In this document: piece by piece, positions 27,842 to 45,097 of the stretch | How positions within the stretch are numbered: position 1 is the stretch's first letter | How the letters are laid out: each line of letters opens with the position of its first letter | Source: a virus | IMG/VR virus record: IMGVR_UViG_3300021598_000208 | Span: 1 to 63,549 of that record | DNA length: 63,549 bases | Direction: 5' to 3' (one strand) | The notes under the pieces: generated by a model | Seen by the model: the letters and a program-made list of their open reading frames with translations, nothing else | Database searches by the model: none | What the model was told of the DNA's origin: nothing | Program-made: the position numbers and the translations under genes

Positions 27842-27857
27842 GTGTCTTTGAAGACAC
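27842..27857. repeat. Copy of 16-bp palindrome beside the tRNA
   Basis: GTGTCTTTGAAGACAC lies 4 bases from the tRNA 5' end, between it and the exonuclease stop codon. Confidence 0.85.
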
Positions 27858-31152: not shown

Positions 31153-31363
31153 CTGTGTCTCCATTGTCTGTAAGTATTACGGATTTAGGATAGGCTTCTC
31201 GTAGTGCCTGCACGTAGTCGTCATTGCTGAATACAAAGTCACTCTCCCGCTCCTCATCAATCATTGGTTGAATGACTGAACGGATTTGCTTTTCGTTTAA
31301 TTGCGTTCCGAGTATAAAACTCTCCTCGTCCCACGCTGATGTTTTGATTCTGAAGATGTTCAT
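31136..31363 (-). CDS. Small hypothetical protein (75 aa)
   Basis: Start at the ATG at 31363, which overlaps the stop of the 48-aa gene as ATGA. Acidic, with IKTSAWDEESFILGTQLNEK and a helix near YVQALREAYPKSVI. Function unknown; the tight overlaps support expression. Confidence 0.55.
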   Translation of the reverse strand: MNIFRIKTSAWDEESFILGTQLNEKQIRSVIQPMIDEERESDFVFSNDDYVQALREAYPKSVILTDNGDTDEIIF

Positions 31364-31506
31364 TTGTCTTGATTTTTTTGTTTTAAAATGTGTGCGACTT
31401 TGCGTCTCACAATTACTTTTAAGAATTTGTATGTGCAATAAGAACCTAATACCATACCTGCCATTGCACTAAAGAAGCAGGATACGAATAAAACAATTTG
31501 ATTCAT
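31360..31506 (-). CDS. Tiny membrane protein (48 aa) directly behind a hammerhead ribozyme
   Basis: ATG at 31506, TGA at 31362-31360 overlapping the next ATG (ATGA). The sequence starts MNQIVLFVSCFFSAMAGMVL, a single hydrophobic helix of about 20 residues, followed by a basic tail (VIVRRKVAHILKQKNQDK). It begins 24 bases downstream of ribozyme 3. The function is unknown; topology and size resemble small phage membrane effectors. Confidence 0.6.
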   Translation of the reverse strand: MNQIVLFVSCFFSAMAGMVLGSYCTYKFLKVIVRRKVAHILKQKNQDK

Positions 31507-31530
31507 AGCCAATTAAATTTAATAAAATTT

Positions 31531-31580
31531 CCGTTTCATCCTTTTAGAATCATCAGTCGGGACAACTCATCCCGATACGG
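31531..31580 (-). ncRNA. Hammerhead ribozyme 3 (type III)
   Basis: Minus-strand RNA: stem III CCGU/ACGG, cleavage site GUA, stem I UCGGGA/UCCCGA (loop UGAGUUG), core CUGAUGA, a weak stem II (UUCU/GGAU with one mismatch and one G-U pair) and core GAAA. Cleavage is predicted between 31576 and 31575. It lies between the GATase/GGCT fusion gene and the 48-aa gene. Confidence 0.75.
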
Positions 31581-31586
31581 AGGGCA

Positions 31587-31602
31587 GTGTCTTTGAAGAC
31601 AC
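31587..31602. repeat. Copy of 16-bp palindrome, just upstream of ribozyme 3
   Basis: GTGTCTTTGAAGACAC, extended by AGGG/CCCT beyond a CA/CA mismatch, giving a stem-loop that would cap the 3' end of the RNA released by the ribozyme. Confidence 0.85.
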
Positions 31603-31617
31603 CACCCTGAGCCAAGA

Positions 31618-32718
31618 CTAAGGTCGGAATCGTAGAACCTCAGTCTCAGTGAACCACTCATCGCAACCACTACAATGGTAGTTCGCAAACATATCGTGCT
31701 CTAAATCGTGGAAGCAATTTACACAAAACGGCTTCTCATTCTCGATGTCGAAGTCACAATCATCGCAATCATCATCCAATATGTCAAGCAGGTTTAACTG
31801 AACGCCACTGCTCGCAGGAATAAACTCTTCACTCTCCAATTCGTCCTGCTCATCATACCAAGCAAGTTTGTTTGAATACTGCTCGTATGTCTTATGGTGC
31901 TCCTCGCCTTTGCCACTCTGCTTGCTGTTGAAATATATCCAACAGGTAACGCTCTTACCTTTGAGCATAACCTGAATTAGTTTCCTCCTGTACCAAACAG
32001 GATGTCCCTCCAATGCGTCCAACTGCGTAAGCGTGTAATTACTTACTTTGAATACATCGACATCGACATTGTGCCCTGTGCCTTTGTCCTCAATCAGATA
32101 GGGCAATCCTTTAATCACTAATGGATACTTGTCTTTTGTCTCGCCACTGCCTAAAAATTTTGAGGTAGTAAGGTAACGGTTGTAATTGCTGTAACCTTTT
32201 TTTAGCGTGCCATATACAGCAATCAAATGGTCTTCAAAGACATTGTCTTTGCTGTACCAAACGCCATCCCTGTGTGTCCACAATTCTCTGTTGTAAATTT
32301 GAAATGTCCGGCTGAATGTATTGATGGTCACGAATCTGCAATCAAACTGCTCAAGATGACTTTTCCACTTGTGACGTGGAATTTCTCCGAGGTTCTCTGC
32401 CAAATGGCGTGAGTCACTTTTCTTTGCTGTGCCTAATGTACGGATAGTCCCGTTCATCATAAGCCACTCCTGTTTGTTGCTGCCGCATCTGAATGGGTGC
32501 GTGTTCTCTTTGTTGATAGCGCCAATGGTAGCATACCTGAAATGCGCAATGTAAGGTCTGTCTGTGTAAAGTACTTTGTACTCTGTAGATTTGTGGTAAG
32601 ATACCTCAAAAGTATCCAACCAAATAACGCCAAGTCCGTGAGGGTTTATTCTCGCTGATGTCTTAGCAACTTCTTTCGGGACAACTCGTCCCTTTTGCTT
32701 GATAATGATAACGCACAT
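31618..32718 (-). CDS. Class II glutamine amidotransferase / gamma-glutamylcyclotransferase fusion
   Basis: 366 aa from the ATG at 32718, chosen because it puts the catalytic Cys at position 2 (MCVIII), as Ntn-type class II amidotransferases need. The GATase domain has AHFRYATIG (R61), THPF, MNGTI (N89, G90) and SDS (D102). The second domain is GGCT/AIG2-like: YGTLKKG (169-175) and LDALEGHPVWYRR with the likely catalytic E237. The C-terminus holds a zinc-ribbon CVNC...CSGC. Predicted chemistry: release of ammonia from glutamine amides and cyclisation of gamma-glutamyl amines. It sits in the same early block as an amidoligase (34321), suggesting a shared pathway. Confidence 0.85.
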   Translation of the reverse strand: MCVIIIKQKGRVVPKEVAKTSARINPHGLGVIWLDTFEVSYHKSTEYKVLYTDRPYIAHFRYATIGAINKENTHPFRCGSNKQEWLMMNGTIRTLGTAKKSDSRHLAENLGEIPRHKWKSHLEQFDCRFVTINTFSRTFQIYNRELWTHRDGVWYSKDNVFEDHLIAVYGTLKKGYSNYNRYLTTSKFLGSGETKDKYPLVIKGLPYLIEDKGTGHNVDVDVFKVSNYTLTQLDALEGHPVWYRRKLIQVMLKGKSVTCWIYFNSKQSGKGEEHHKTYEQYSNKLAWYDEQDELESEEFIPASSGVQLNLLDILDDDCDDCDFDIENEKPFCVNCFHDLEHDMFANYHCSGCDEWFTETEVLRFRP

Positions 32719-32738
32719 ACTGATTTGATTTGTGGGCA

Positions 32739-32754
32739 GTGTCTTTGAAGACAC
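32739..32754. repeat. Copy of 16-bp palindrome upstream of GATase/GGCT gene
   Basis: GTGTCTTTGAAGACAC, 20 bases before the start codon and within the leader after the promoter-like box at 32811-32818. Confidence 0.85.
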
Positions 32755-32810
32755 AGAACCCGATTATTGAACTGATATTGAACGAAGATACGACATAAAT
32801 TAGACATATC

Positions 32811-32818
32811 CAAATTTA
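32811..32818 (-). promoter_or_regulatory. Possible promoter (TAAATTTG on minus strand)
   Basis: TAnnTTTG match in the gap between the 53-aa gene and the GATase/GGCT gene, about 93 bases before its ATG. No clear -33 box was identified. Confidence 0.35.
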
Positions 32819-32822
32819 TTTT

Positions 32823-32984
32823 TTAATAAACTTTCTTTGCCCTGAATTTTGTTCGCTCTAAATGGGGTCTGTCCACAATGAATTTGTAGTACGCCTTGTC
32901 AACAGCCTCCCACTTTGTGTGGGCGACTACTGACCATACGCATACCTGTCCATAGAATACTTTGAAATAATGTTGACTTTCCAT
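32823..32984 (-). CDS. Small hypothetical protein (53 aa)
   Basis: ATG at 32984 preceded by AAATCAAGTCAAT, stop TAA at 32825-32823. It reads MESQHYFKVFYGQVCVWSVV, with basic and aromatic residues, and ends FRAKKVY. The leader motif and lack of overlap support expression. Function unknown. Confidence 0.5.
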   Translation of the reverse strand: MESQHYFKVFYGQVCVWSVVAHTKWEAVDKAYYKFIVDRPHLERTKFRAKKVY

Positions 32985-33002
32985 ATTGACTTGATTTAAA
33001 AA

Positions 33003-33284
33003 TTAATAATCATCTTCCAACCTTTCACCTGCATAGGACTCATCGAAGTACCTATCCTTCCTGTACGGATACTTGTCACTCTCGTAACAATCTCCACACC
33101 AATGCCCTGTGCTGTACCCATAGGCGTCACTCTCTTCGCTAACGTTTGCCTTAGTACCACAGCCCCTGCAAGGGACTAAGTTCTCATTGCAACGCTCACA
33201 TAGATTTTCGTCAAACCACATATCGTGGTGACCTTGGGAGCACCCACATCCTGAGCACTCCCATACATCATTTGCTCTTGTCAT
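33003..33284 (-). CDS. Small zinc-finger-like protein (93 aa)
   Basis: Four cysteine clusters: CSGCGCSQGHH, CERCNENL, CRGCGTK and CGDC. Together they could form two zinc ribbons or rubredoxin-like knuckles. The C-terminus is acidic and Tyr-rich (YRKDRYFDESYAGERLEDDY). A DNA- or RNA-binding adaptor is plausible. One base from the next gene upstream. Confidence 0.6.
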   Translation of the reverse strand: MTRANDVWECSGCGCSQGHHDMWFDENLCERCNENLVPCRGCGTKANVSEESDAYGYSTGHWCGDCYESDKYPYRKDRYFDESYAGERLEDDY

Positions 33285-33285
33285 C

Positions 33286-33480
33286 TTACTTTCTTTTTGA
33301 TACGTGATAGATTCTGATGCCGTTCTCGATTTTCATATCGATGGGATACACATCCACCAAGACATTGAGGTAGTACTTATACTCCTTTAATTTGTCCTCC
33401 GGTAGATATAATAGCCTGTCGATTACATCTTGAATGGTTTCGTTTCTTTGTTGTTCGGTTGTCATTTGTTCCTTTGTCAT
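33286..33480 (-). CDS. Small hypothetical protein (64 aa)
   Basis: Starts after AAATCAAAAT. Helical first half (TEQQRNETIQDVIDRLLYLP) with DKLKEYKYYLNVLVDVYPID. Function unknown. Confidence 0.5.
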   Translation of the reverse strand: MTKEQMTTEQQRNETIQDVIDRLLYLPEDKLKEYKYYLNVLVDVYPIDMKIENGIRIYHVSKRK

Positions 33481-33492
33481 TTTGATTTGATT

Positions 33493-33618
33493 TTAGTTTT
33501 TTGAATTTGAAGAGATTTCATCTCTCCAATGTTGAATTAAAGTTTTAACAAACACGTATAAAACGATGACTGACAGGCTAATAACTAAAGCCTCTAAAAT
33601 TGTGATGTGTGTGCCCAT
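33493..33618 (-). CDS. Tiny membrane protein (41 aa)
   Basis: ATG at 33618 directly preceded by AAAATCAAATCAA. One hydrophobic helix (ITILEALVISLSVIVLYVFV) then a short hydrophilic end (HWRDEISSNSKN). A second small single-span protein in the early block, like the 48-aa one at 31360. Confidence 0.5.
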   Translation of the reverse strand: MGTHITILEALVISLSVIVLYVFVKTLIQHWRDEISSNSKN

Positions 33619-33637
33619 TTGATTTGATTTTATTGGT

Positions 33638-33853
33638 TTACAATTGAACGCCTAAAACGTCCTTTAATGATTTTGAAATAAATTCGTGACCTCGGCTGAA
33701 TCTATCTTTGATAGTTATTCTGCCAATTTTTAAAGTCCACGTTCCATCTGAAAATTTTGTGATGGTTGACACAGGCGCTGTCTCATCAGGAATAAATCCT
33801 TCCTGTCTGAATACTCCCTGCACTTTCATAGTAAATAAAACATCTTGTCTCAT
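33638..33853 (-). CDS. Small hypothetical protein directly behind a hammerhead ribozyme (71 aa)
   Basis: The ATG at 33853 follows TTAAATCAAATCAA; an upstream extension would run through ribozyme 2 and is rejected. Strand-rich content (TMKVQGVFRQEGFIPDET, GTWTLKIGRITIKDRF). Function unknown. Confidence 0.5.
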   Translation of the reverse strand: MRQDVLFTMKVQGVFRQEGFIPDETAPVSTITKFSDGTWTLKIGRITIKDRFSRGHEFISKSLKDVLGVQL

Positions 33854-33874
33854 TTGATTTGATTTAAATGGTTT

Positions 33875-33925
33875 CCTGTTTCGTCCTGTTAGACTCATCA
33901 GGCAAGGCAAACACCTTGCGACAGG
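33875..33925 (-). ncRNA. Hammerhead ribozyme 2 (type III)
   Basis: Minus-strand RNA: stem III CCUGU/ACAGG, cleavage site GUC, stem I GCAAGG/CCUUGC with loop UGUUUG, core CUGAUGA, stem II GUC/GAC with loop UAACAG, core GAAA. Predicted cleavage between 33920 and 33919. Located 21 bases before the 71-aa gene. Confidence 0.85.
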
Positions 33926-33927
33926 CT

Positions 33928-33943
33928 GTGTCTTTGAAGACAC
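33928..33943. repeat. Copy of 16-bp palindrome, 2 bases upstream of ribozyme 2
   Basis: GTGTCTTTGAAGACAC extended to CTGTGTCTT/AAGACACAG, starting 9 bases after the stop of the 82-aa gene. Confidence 0.88.
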
Positions 33944-33952
33944 AGGCTCTTT

Positions 33953-34201
33953 TTAGAATCTGTGATACATCGACCCTTTTGCATTCGGGAAAACTGACCT
34001 ATCATATTTGTTGTTTTCAACCCATTTATCGTAACCTTCTAGCAATGCTTTGAACTCTGCCTCGTGGTTTACAGGGTCAAGTTTAACGCACATCAGGTTG
34101 TCCTCAATTTTAGAAAATTTAATTTTTGATTCTGTCAGGTAGCAATCCCACACTTTACTAAAATCAAAATAGTAATGCTCTTGAACGTTTTTAAATGTCA
34201 T
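33953..34201 (-). CDS. Small hypothetical protein (82 aa)
   Basis: Start at the ATG at 34201 (an upstream TTG lies in a hairpin between ribozyme and gene). The N-terminus TFKNVQEHYYFDFSKVWDCY is strand-like and the C-terminus contains FKALLEGYDKWVENNKYDRS. It lies between ribozymes 1 and 2. Function unknown. Confidence 0.5.
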   Translation of the reverse strand: MTFKNVQEHYYFDFSKVWDCYLTESKIKFSKIEDNLMCVKLDPVNHEAEFKALLEGYDKWVENNKYDRSVFPNAKGSMYHRF

Positions 34202-34216
34202 TTTATTTGGTTTTGT

Positions 34217-34234
34217 GGAGGGTTTCAAACCTCC
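34217..34234 (-). promoter_or_regulatory. Stem-loop between ribozyme 1 and start codon
   Basis: GGAGG/CCTCC with a short loop, 15 bases before the ATG at 34201; it would form in the 3' product of ribozyme cleavage and could shape translation. Confidence 0.4.
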
Positions 34235-34244
34235 GGTTTTAAAT

Positions 34245-34295
34245 GCTGTTTCGTTCTTTTGAACTCATCAGGCAGAGCAAACACTCTGCGACAGC
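34245..34295 (-). ncRNA. Hammerhead ribozyme 1 (type III)
   Basis: Minus-strand RNA with all core parts intact: stem III GCUGU/ACAGC, cleavage site GUC, stem I GCAGAG/CUCUGC with loop UGUUUG, core CUGAUGA, stem II GUUC/GAAC closed by AAAA, core GAAA. Predicted cleavage between 34290 and 34289. It lies between the amidoligase and the 82-aa gene. Confidence 0.9.
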
Positions 34296-34296
34296 A

Positions 34297-34315
34297 GGAG
34301 GGCAATTTGCCCTCC
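34297..34315 (-). terminator. Stem-loop between amidoligase stop and ribozyme 1
   Basis: Perfect 9-bp inverted repeat GGAGGGCAA/TTGCCCTCC ending 1 base before the ribozyme. There is no T-run, so it looks more like a 3'-end cap for the cleaved RNA than a true terminator. Confidence 0.5.
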
Positions 34316-34320
34316 CTGTG

Positions 34321-35232
34321 TCAATTCTCAATCCATTTGAGGATGTCTTGGTGAACCTCTCCTGTAAGGATATATTTTTGAAATAGCTTCGACAATCTTA
34401 TTACTTCATTCACTTTGTCCTCATTCCCATTGTACATAGATTTTAAAATTGGCGTTACGATTTTAATCATCGAGTCAAATTTGCCCTTCTTATTCACTGC
34501 GAAATTCACAACCTCATACATTAACTCGTAACGCCTCATCATCTGCTTTACTGACTCAAAGCGAGACGGCAACCTGAACTCAAGGCAATTTTCTTTCACG
34601 AGCGCAACCTGATATTTGTAGTGCCAATCATAGCGACCTAAACGCCTTGCCTCATCCTCTGTTACCATCCTCTTATTTTTGTTGCAATAGCTATTTTTTA
34701 GCCTATTTCTAAACAGGGCATAGATGATGCCGGCATAATTACGAACCTCCAATCTAATCTCATTGCCTGTCATTCCCTCCACGCCTAAGGTTATGTGACC
34801 TCCGCAATTTTGAGCGGATGGGCTGAACTTGTCATCGATGATTTTCTCTGCCTTGTGCATCATATCAAAAACCTTCGTGCGCCACATTCCTGCAGGCAAT
34901 AGGGGTAAAATGTGAGTCACTGCCTCATACCCATCCACGCCCGGATGCTCGCCACAGCTTCCGTCACGCTCAAAACCGCAAAACAATTCATATTCACGTA
35001 CTGCGCCTCTGTGCAATGTGTTTTTTTCAACCTCCATTCCGATGGTAAATTTGGCGCTGTATTCCATCCCGTCAAATTTGATAACGTCCCTTTGCTGTGT
35101 CTTTTTAAGACCTGCGATGTCGATATTGCTTTTGCTCTTGTGTAACATTAGCGGAGCGGGTTTGTGATGGTATCTTGTCACTGAACCTCTCATGCTGTCT
35201 CCTGTGGTTGTGTAAACGATTCCTGTATTCAT
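34321..35232 (-). CDS. Putative amidoligase (GS-fold COOH-NH2 ligase, Amidoligase_2-like)
   Basis: 303 aa. The family pattern is visible in order: FTIGMEVEKN (E67, E69; metal/ATP site), ERDGSCG then GYEAVTHILP (residues 88-110, the DGS...E segment), QNCGGHITLG (G-G-H, 144-146), a helix YAGIIYALFRNRLKN, and NCLEFRLPSR (EFR, 218-220). These enzymes join carboxyl and amine groups using ATP. In comparative genomics they are linked to class II amidotransferases and AIG2/GGCT enzymes, and this window has exactly that fusion 1.6 kb downstream in the same orientation. The substrate is unknown. Confidence 0.75.
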   Translation of the reverse strand: MNTGIVYTTTGDSMRGSVTRYHHKPAPLMLHKSKSNIDIAGLKKTQQRDVIKFDGMEYSAKFTIGMEVEKNTLHRGAVREYELFCGFERDGSCGEHPGVDGYEAVTHILPLLPAGMWRTKVFDMMHKAEKIIDDKFSPSAQNCGGHITLGVEGMTGNEIRLEVRNYAGIIYALFRNRLKNSYCNKNKRMVTEDEARRLGRYDWHYKYQVALVKENCLEFRLPSRFESVKQMMRRYELMYEVVNFAVNKKGKFDSMIKIVTPILKSMYNGNEDKVNEVIRLSKLFQKYILTGEVHQDILKWIEN

Positions 35233-35249: not shown

Positions 35250-35265
35250 GTGTCTTTGAAGACAC
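35250..35265. repeat. Copy of 16-bp palindrome upstream of amidoligase
   Basis: GTGTCTTTGAAGACAC, 4 bases after the stop of the 216-aa gene and 17 bases before the amidoligase start. Confidence 0.85.
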
Positions 35266-36035: not shown

Positions 36036-36109
36036 CTATTTTTTGTGAGCGGAATATTTACAGGTCAAAAGATGGGGATGGGGTTACCTCTCTTCTGCAA
36101 CCTTGTGCA

Positions 36110-36125
36110 GTGTCTTCAAAGACAC
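36110..36125. repeat. Copy of 16-bp palindrome in control region
   Basis: GTGTCTTCAAAGACAC at the left edge of the purine-rich tract. Confidence 0.85.
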
Positions 36126-36240
36126 AGGAGGAGGCAGGGAGGAGGAGCGGAGACAGGAGGAGGGATGGCAGGGAGGAGGCACGAGCGCCACAGGAACGGG
36201 AGCGGAGGCGCAATGGTTAGCGCCTCTGCTACTACATAGG
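36126..36240 (+). other. Purine/G-rich tract with GC hairpin
   Basis: A run of GGAGG-type repeats in an otherwise AT-rich genome, ending in a 7-bp hairpin GAGGCGC/GCGCCTC (36205-36226, loop AATGGTTA). Two-tier G-quadruplexes are possible. The hairpin resembles a tRNA D-arm, but no other tRNA part is present. Confidence 0.5.
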
Positions 36241-36430
36241 CACGCTACGGAAAAGCTAAAAAATCCGGCAGGGGATTTTGAAAACGCACCCCCACCCCCT
36301 CAAAAAAAAATGACTTTCGTTTTCGGGTCGGCTGCGCCAAATGCCCCTATAACCCAAACACTACTACTATCTGAAAATTTTTTTATCTTTACTCTGAAAT
36401 ATTTCTAAAAACGTTTTAAAACAAATTATT

Positions 36431-44012: not shown

Positions 44013-44420
44013 ATGCCTACAGAAGAGCATATTGCCAACTTTAAGTTATTAGCTGAGAATGTATTTGAGCCTATTCGCAATAACTTTAGATGTCCAATTC
44101 ATATCTCAAGTGGATACAGGTCTGCTGAACTTAACAAATGCATTGGTGGCTCATCTACCTCTCAGCATTGCAAAGGTCAGGCTGTTGACATTGATATGGA
44201 CGGCACTCCAAATGGTGTGACTAATAAGATGGTCTTTGATTATATCAAGGACAACTTAGAGTTCGACCAATTGATAGCTGAGTTCCCAAAACAGGGTAAG
44301 CCTGATTGGGTGCACGTTTCTTACAGTGAAGGTAAAAATAGAAAGCAAATACTTGTAGCTAAAAAGGTTAATAGTAAAACTACATACATATCTTACAGTA
44401 GTGAAAAAGACCTTTCATAA
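44013..44420 (+). CDS. Endolysin, M15 family D-Ala-D-Ala peptidase-like
   Basis: 135 aa. Zinc-site motifs SGYRSAELNKCIGG, STSQHCKGQAVDID (His and Asp ligands) and DWVHVSY (second His) mark the peptidase M15 fold used by many phage endolysins. Upstream of the ATG the same frame reads SELIRSESAKRNGISN, which matches the usual N-terminus of this family, yet no ATG/GTG/TTG is available after the in-frame stop at 43953. The true start is therefore unusual or the protein is made by frameshift from the holin gene. Confidence 0.82.
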   Translation: MPTEEHIANFKLLAENVFEPIRNNFRCPIHISSGYRSAELNKCIGGSSTSQHCKGQAVDIDMDGTPNGVTNKMVFDYIKDNLEFDQLIAEFPKQGKPDWVHVSYSEGKNRKQILVAKKVNSKTTYISYSSEKDLS

Positions 44421-45097
44421 TGGCTTATGTATACAGGCATATTAGGTTAGATAAAAATCAACCATTTTACATTGGCGTTGGAACGTATGATACATACAAA
44501 AGAGCGTACGATAAAAAAAACAGGAATTTACATTGGAATAATATCGTCAAAAAAACTGATTATGAGGTTGATATTTTAATTGATGGGCTTTCAGAAAAAG
44601 ATGCTTTTGCTAAAGAGATTGAATTTATATCTTTATATGGAAAGTCTTGTAATGGAGGTTTGCTTTGTAATATAACTGACGGTGGAGAGGGAGGATTTTT
44701 AAGTGAAGAGGTAAATGAAAAGAGAAAATTAGCCTTATTAGGTAGGAAATTACCAAGTCATATTAAAGAAAAGATAAGAATAAAGGCTATTGGAAGGAAG
44801 GCAAGTTTTCTTACAAAAGAAAAAATGTCTGAAATACATAAGAAAAACGGAACAGGAATATGGCTTAAAAGCAAAGGTCACCAAAATGGTAATGCAAAAT
44901 CTATTTCTCAGTTTGATTTAGATGGTAATTTTATAAAAACTTGGGAATGTTCTGCTTATGCTTGCAAGGAATTATTAATAAATAAGTCTTCATTGTCTTC
45001 CGTTTTAAATGGCAATCAAAAAACAGCAGGCGGTTTTATATGGAAATTTCATAAAATCAAATCAAATGGCAAAACATCTTACCTTAATATTACTTAG
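44420..45097 (+). CDS. GIY-YIG homing endonuclease (Seg-like)
   Basis: 225 aa. N-terminal GIY-YIG domain: YVYRHIRLDKNQPFYIGVGT, the catalytic-region AYDKKNRNLHWNN, and EIEFISLYGKSCNGGLLCNI with the conserved Glu. The C-terminal part (SISQFDLDGNFIKTWECSAY, NKSSLSSVLNGNQKTAGGFI) is a NUMOD-type DNA-binding repeat. Free-standing homing endonucleases spread by cutting genomes lacking them. It sits within the lysis cassette, separating the endolysin from the u-spanin-like gene, and its 3' end overlaps that gene by 32 bases. Confidence 0.85.
   Translation: MAYVYRHIRLDKNQPFYIGVGTYDTYKRAYDKKNRNLHWNNIVKKTDYEVDILIDGLSEKDAFAKEIEFISLYGKSCNGGLLCNITDGGEGGFLSEEVNEKRKLALLGRKLPSHIKEKIRIKAIGRKASFLTKEKMSEIHKKNGTGIWLKSKGHQNGNAKSISQFDLDGNFIKTWECSAYACKELLINKSSLSSVLNGNQKTAGGFIWKFHKIKSNGKTSYLNIT

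Follow-up and report, generated by a model that had tools for sequence, protein, structure and literature searches.

Hairpin-linked hammerhead ribozymes and tRNA-like minihelices as candidate cleavage marks between phage genes

Three hairpin-hammerhead junctions in a phage gene block

The IMG/VR virus record IMGVR_UViG_3300021598_000208 was analysed over positions 1 to 63,549; this whole stretch of 63,549 bases is called here the window. The proteins that it encodes include a terminase, a portal protein, GroEL and a primase-like protein. The terminase is 78% identical to that of the metagenomic phage MW202828, 44% identical to those of the cultured Flavobacterium phages (elemo), and less similar to those of Cellulophaga phages. 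The present work deals with three type III hammerhead ribozymes (HHRs) located on the minus strand, inside a minus-strand gene block, each of them standing between two protein genes and directly preceded by an RNA hairpin. A megablast comparison of this junction region with GenBank phages gave no match.

The genes flanking the three junctions are all on the minus strand. The upstream cistron of junction 1, called gene A (34321-35232, 303 amino acids), is an open reading frame (ORF) with relatives in IMG/VR. Its protein has no sequence match in Pfam or PDB, and its best fold matches (YbdK, gamma-glutamylmethylamide synthetase and PafA) are non-significant and were obtained with a low-confidence model; for these reasons it is only tentatively described as amidoligase-like. 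The ORF 33953-34201, starting at ATG 34201, follows the first ribozyme, and the ORF 33638-33853 (MRQDVLF..., ATG 33853), with homologues in loci L352 and L326, follows the second. The upstream cistron of junction 3 (31618-32721) encodes class-II glutamine amidotransferase-like and gamma-glutamyl cyclotransferase domains (Pfam PF06094, 1.1e-22, and PF13522, 5e-5), and the small ORF downstream of this junction (31360-31506, MNQIVLFV...) starts at ATG 31506.

The order of the parts is the same at all three junctions: the stop codon is followed after 4-10 nt by the hairpin, which adjoins the ribozyme with a gap of 0 nt, and the ATG comes 21-42 nt further on. At junction 1, the stop codon of gene A (34321) is followed after about 4 nt by hairpin 1 (GGGAGGGCAAATTGCCCTCC, 34297-34316) and HHR1 (34244-34296, cleavage triplet GUC, predicted cut 34290/34289), the ATG being located 42 nt past the ribozyme. 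Junction 2 consists of the stop codon at 33953, about 7 nt, hairpin 2 (CTGTGTCTTCAAAGACACAG, 33926-33945) and HHR2 (33875-33925, GUC, predicted cut 33920/33919), with the ATG 21 nt further on. Junction 3 is composed of the stop codon at 31618, about 10 nt, hairpin 3 (GGGTGGTGTCTTCAAAGACACTGCCC, 31582-31607) and HHR3 (31530-31581, GUA, predicted cut 31576/31575), 23 nt before the ATG. A preliminary description of this DNA had proposed one arrangement shared by the three ribozymes, and both the alignments to Rfam RF00008 and the exact coordinates bear this out, including the presence of a small gene 20-45 bases past each ribozyme. The 1-6 bases that it placed between stem-loop and ribozyme have to be corrected, since the actual gap to the extended stem III is 0 nt in all three cases.

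Each ribozyme aligns to RF00008 over the whole model: HHR1 at 34297-34243 (42.3 bits, E 1.2e-6), HHR2 at 33927-33873 (37.9 bits, E 2.1e-5) and HHR3 at 31583-31528 (32.1 bits, E 9e-4). These full-length alignments give a type III topology, in which stems I and II are closed by loops and stem III is open. The core CUGAUGA ... GAA with the A15.1-U16.1 pair is present in all three. Positions 10.1/11.1 are G-C in HHR1 and HHR2 and U.U in HHR3; the latter is frequent among the HHRs surveyed below, and the HHR3 sub-variant also precedes a conserved gene in L303, L304, L046, L346 and L321. The three ribozymes lie within 2.8 kb on the strand of the neighbouring genes, and relatives carry from one to four. 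Chance is excluded as the origin of this arrangement, because the HHR search rule had zero matches in 0.73 Mb of mono-nucleotide-shuffled sequence and the hairpins are far more stable than those of shuffled sequences (see below). A putative fourth ribozyme remnant near 32663-32692 (repeat D18) was discarded, being inside the amidotransferase coding sequence and lacking the core.

Hammerheads and their hairpins in IMG/VR

Two pattern scans and one protein scan of IMG/VR provided at least 251 HHRs, at least 177 of them non-redundant. The figures given here refer to 175 non-redundant type III HHRs on IMG/VR contigs, among the matches listed, and hairpins are called strong when their dG is -8 or lower. 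With a second pattern, restricted to the core and not requiring pairing, 92 of the 99 distinct matches listed have all six stem I pairs, and stem I positions show up to six pair types among them. The loops of stem I (6 nt) and stem II (4 nt) are minimal. Nucleotide 17 is associated with positions 10.1/11.1 (C17 with G-C, 96; A17 with U.U, 55; A17 with G-C, 15; C17 with U.U, 1; Fisher p 6e-29), which defines two HHR subtypes that frequently share one genome.

A strong hairpin adjoins stem III in 129 of the 175 HHRs, the median dG of the abutting hairpin being -12.6 versus -1.7 in shuffles. The hairpin loops vary widely (UUCA, CUUCGG, GAAA and others). The median distance to the stop codon upstream is 33 nt, and to the next ATG downstream 23 nt. 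Strong hairpins are found at 80% of the gene ends with an HHR (n=92) versus 25% of those without it (n=278; Fisher p 3e-21). The presence of the hairpin also depends on the gene upstream: a hairpin accompanies 112 of the 130 HHRs with a co-directional gene ending upstream versus 14 of the 38 HHRs without such a gene (Fisher p 7e-9). A T-run follows 2 of 74 HHR-linked hairpins and none of the three in the window, which rules out that these hairpins act as intrinsic terminators. This tie to the upstream gene, together with the near absence of T-runs, suggests that the hairpin caps the 3' end of the upstream message rather than being a terminator or a folding aid.

The hairpin could instead be an accessory of the ribozyme, either stacking on stem III or preventing misfolding with the upstream coding sequence, with no role at the 3' end. 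The distance from its 3' end to stem III, which is 0 nt in 97 of the 129 cases and 0-1 nt in 110, is what such an accessory would call for. However, the hairpin is largely missing where no co-directional gene lies upstream, a dependence that is expected for a message cap and unexpected for a mere folding aid. Similar hairpins also occur before the unrelated minihelices described below, and alone at other junctions. The accessory role is thus considered unlikely.

A near-palindrome of 16 nt (GTGTCTTCAAAGACAC or its complement) provides two of the three junction hairpins of the window. It occurs 346 times across all loci compared and is possibly a dispersed hairpin element or a protein-binding site. 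Its ten copies in the window (14473, 22945, 27842, 31587, 32739, 33928, 35250, 36110, 41348 and 57872) sit at gene ends and within ORFs, where they appear in differing reading frames. Three minus-strand copies are devoid of a ribozyme: 35250-35265, between two genes; 32739-32754, directly 5' of the start of the amidotransferase gene; and 27842-27857, downstream of the gene 28629-27883. Hairpin likeness is 0.74 within a genome versus 0.56 between genomes, an excess not seen for stem I (0.66 versus 0.62). Both this likeness and the dispersal of the element, partly within ORFs, would suit a selfish or mobile RNA-coding cassette, formed by hairpin and HHR, that is tolerated in gene gaps without benefit for the phage. 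Against it stand the rich stem covariation of the HHRs, the maintenance by 56 of 73 relatives, with gene A identities down to 44%, of an HHR at a single orthologous junction, and the occupation of the same kind of slot by a non-homologous minihelix or twister (see below), so that a merely selfish cassette is regarded as very improbable.

HHRs were also observed outside these viral sets. Loci L382-L407, mostly contigs of Patescibacteria metagenome-assembled genomes (for instance L393, L395, L399 and L406), carry as many as six type III HHRs in 8 kb, with abutting hairpins. A boxA-like GTTCTTT is present within 30 nt after the HHR in 23 of 41 cases (0.5 expected), versus 1 of 203 in the viral set, pointing to a possible connection with antitermination. 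In the cultured Flavobacterium phage elemo, a single HHR (MT497071, 17865-17921, minus strand) stands ahead of the first gene of the leftward block, and no obvious strong hairpin adjoins it.

Exchange of candidate cleavage elements at orthologous junctions

The junctions of gene A were compared on a tree of 73 relatives of the window gene, with protein identities down to 44%. The 3' junction contains an HHR in 56 relatives, mostly with a hairpin directly before it, a tRNA-like minihelix in 7, only a hairpin in 7 and none of these elements in 3, six of these junctions having been classed by eye from sequence. Relatives that keep the hairpin and lack the ribozyme, which the preliminary description had named as evidence that would speak against it, therefore exist, but they are a minority: 7 of the 73 keep a hairpin at a junction with no cleavage element detected, so that hairpins may also have a function where no ribozyme is present. 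HHR and minihelix have replaced each other on the tree at least five times at the 3' junction and at least three times at the 5' junction. Clustering of downstream genes gave three families that are preceded by an HHR in some phages and by a minihelix in others. Several relatives have the same kind of element on both flanks of gene A, and HHRs and minihelices are found together in several genomes (L043, L063, L313 and L343). At the 5' junction of gene A in L341 there is a third kind of element, a type-P3 twister ribozyme scoring 61.8 bits (cut-off 39.9). This twister (L341:4395-4472) lies directly 5' of gene A and encloses both a hairpin (GTGTCTTACAAGACAC) and the upstream stop codon.

The minihelix occupies the slot of the HHR at conserved junctions of some relatives. 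It is 40-44 nt long (typically 42 nt) and is composed of a 7-8 bp acceptor-like stem, a connector of 10-11 nt with a conserved GG (AUGGU...A), a 5-bp T-stem and a canonical UUCGANN loop. In seven aligned copies, 98.8% of the cells of its 12 pairs are paired and 11 of these pairs have changed on both sides, a covariation score reached by none of 500 shuffles. A covariance model found 27 distinct strong copies once one tRNA was removed. The D and anticodon arms of the tRNA cloverleaf are missing; ARAGORN detected no tRNA gene in any of the loci submitted to it, among them L060, L063, L069 and L070, and Rfam gave no tRNA match at the minihelix sites. The minihelix may represent a new RNA family. 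The set was drawn from relatives of gene A because the pattern AAAGACACN{18,44}GGTTCGANTCC, tried as a finder, was noisy, its output being mostly real tRNAs and chance matches. The R1 matches in L360, L357, L347, L369 and Cellulophaga phage phi38:1 are ordinary tRNAs and were dropped, as was the one in MW202828, which resembles a larger tRNA.

The surroundings of the minihelix resemble those of the HHR. In 29 of 30 cases an ATG lies no more than 60 nt downstream, and a hairpin precedes the minihelix in 21 of 29, versus 7% of shuffles, usually with a gap of 1 nt. Its stacked acceptor and T stems (12 bp) and its UUCGANN T-loop correspond to the layout of a minimal RNase P substrate, and the minihelix is presumably such a substrate, with a predicted cut 5' of the acceptor stem. 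The conserved GG may mimic the contact of the D-loop with the T-loop. For these predicted cuts the median distance from the hairpin is 6 nt in HHRs and 1 nt in minihelices.

The replacement of one element by another bears on the possibility that the unit is a regulated ribozyme in the 5' untranslated region (5'-UTR) of the downstream gene, in which case the hairpin would simply terminate or attenuate transcription of the upstream one. This explanation would account for the tight distance to the ATG (the 23 nt median) and for the position of the single HHR of elemo, ahead of the first gene in a transcription unit. However, a sensor would not fit in stem I and II loops of just 6 and 4 nt, the scarcity of T-runs (2 of 74) does not agree with ordinary terminators, and what the minihelix would preserve is cleavability and not a common sensor. 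Such 5'-UTR control is accordingly judged improbable, even more so than an accessory role of the hairpin.

Other variants of these junctions were observed. In L357 the HHR at the 3' junction of gene A is complete but for a change of A9 to U (CTGATGT) and the hairpin is kept; this HHR is possibly inactive and a candidate for natural ribozyme loss. The motif (T)GGTGGTAGAAAC, located after a hairpin and accompanied upstream by a partner of CCACC type, occurs at similar junctions in L354:5498, L360:5495 and L090:9325 (minus strand). In L354 and L360 it sits at the 3' junction of gene A, where Rfam gave no match, and it is a candidate for a further cleavage element. The DUF805b RNA motif (RF02914) is present in the gene block of relatives (L353:5417-5449, L353:1460-1492 and L371:3699-3733), once directly 3' of gene A.

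Two features of the window lie apart from the junctions. Positions 36100-36300, which lie between divergent gene blocks, are unusually rich in purines and in GC (AGGAGGAGGCAGGGAGGAGG...) and contain the inverted repeat GGCGC...GCGCC; this region may be a noncoding RNA or a replication element. The plus-strand ORF 44420-45097 shows a weak match, below cut-off, to an I-HmuI/NUMOD-like homing endonuclease domain.

A proposed punctuation of phage transcripts and its relation to known systems

The unit formed by hairpin, HHR, short leader and start codon probably serves to punctuate a polycistronic phage transcript. The nascent RNA would cut itself co-transcriptionally at GUC| or GUA|. The upstream message would then bear its terminal 2',3'-cyclic phosphate 5-7 nt past a stable hairpin and would be shielded from 3' exonucleases, and the 5'-OH at the start of the downstream message would sit directly on the stem I hairpin. 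Where relatives have a minihelix, the cut would be made by host RNase P, about 1 nt past the hairpin, giving an equivalent pair of hairpin-protected ends. Small genes would in this way be placed on separate mRNAs, their stability and dosage being uncoupled from those of their neighbours without extra promoters or terminators. That non-homologous elements replace one another at orthologous junctions argues strongly for the cut itself as the selected function, and 3'-end capping is preferred mainly because the hairpin-to-cut distance is short across two unrelated chemistries. Taken together, the comparisons strongly suggest that HHR and minihelix are interchangeable RNA cleavage marks splitting a long phage message into hairpin-ended messages.

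The hairpin-ended upstream mRNA put forward in the preliminary description thus gains comparative support from the 175 HHRs, the dependence on an upstream gene, the lack of T-runs and the minihelix replacement. Its further proposal of an RNA-encoded processing that needs no protein fits the HHR junctions but is too strong for the whole system, since the relatives with a minihelix presumably depend on host RNase P.

Several points weigh against punctuation by cleavage. Its support comes from sequence comparison, and the cutting of minihelices by RNase P is predicted. HHR1-3 score below the curated (gathering) cut-off of RF00008, 48.5 bits: an Rfam scan of the window at this threshold gave nothing and the three surface only under E-value thresholds, a few HHRs of relatives (L327 and L331) exceeding it. 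About one quarter of the surveyed HHRs have no adjacent hairpin detected, and hairpins without a cutter are found at the 7 gene A junctions mentioned and at several window positions, some of them within ORFs. The tight ATG distance, taken alone, also fits control of the downstream gene. In L330, L336 and L345, the minihelix at the 3' junction of gene A either abuts the stop codon or overlaps it, and it precedes the hairpin instead of following it, so that a cut there would harm the stop codon. Few minihelices have an encoded CCA, and the surveyed loci are not fully independent of one another.

In its widest form, the proposal is that phages of Bacteroidota-type hosts use a general punctuation code in which a hairpin cap is combined with an interchangeable cutter (hammerhead, twister, or a tRNA-elbow mimic cut by RNase P) to yield separately stabilised single-gene mRNAs, the ribozyme form being also present in other phages and in Patescibacteria-associated elements. 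We lean towards this generalization, with less assurance than for the individual mark.

HHR clusters of phages and prophages, in which several HHRs flank single genes, were described by Perreault et al. (2011, PMC3088659), who already proposed that such clusters cut long phage transcripts down to mRNAs of gene length. Of the tandem arrays in that report, three showed cleavage in vitro and one did so in E. coli, a halovirus 5' end was mapped at 3 nt or less from the HHR cut, and the U10.1-U11.1 variant was also described (PMC3088659). The window resembles those clusters in having at least two HHRs around genes of one phage transcription unit; the passages of that report compared here mention no ribozyme-coupled hairpin, upstream-gene dependence or tRNA-like replacement. 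With respect to RF00008, the HHRs of the window share core, topology and cleavage triplet, but the present HHRs differ in their short 6-nt stem I loop of UGNGUR type, their 4-nt stem II loop, their sub-cut-off scores and the A17/U.U sub-variant.

In mitochondrial transcripts, tRNA-shaped elements mark the cut sites between genes (tRNA punctuation); the phage junctions differ in that their tRNA mimics are minimal and alternate with self-cleaving ribozymes. Engineered ribozyme insulators of the RiboJ type combine an HHR and a hairpin in one cassette with the hairpin downstream, while in the phage junctions it lies upstream of the predicted cut. RNase P cleaves model substrates formed by acceptor, T-stem and T-loop (PMC11143913). 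The minihelix has these same three parts; unlike the models it is natural, lies between phage genes and has a GG-bearing connector in place of the D and anticodon arms, its cleavage being predicted. Theta (HDV-like) ribozymes, which are self-cleaving, adjoin phage tRNAs and have been proposed to process phage transcripts (PMC10879173). In contrast to this tRNA processing, the present HHRs stand between protein genes and have a hairpin cap.

No published account of the hairpin-HHR unit or of its replacement by a minihelix was found in the open-licence literature searched. What HHRs do in bacteria and phages is a question still regarded as open (PMC6155905), and the link between hairpin and upstream gene, together with the minihelix replacement, makes it testable. 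The result predicts a natural compact design for operon splitting, a new small RNA family and places in which to seek further self-cleaving motifs. Phage HHR clusters and their proposed role in processing were thus already known, and what these sequence comparisons would add is the coupling to a hairpin and the replacement by a minihelix.

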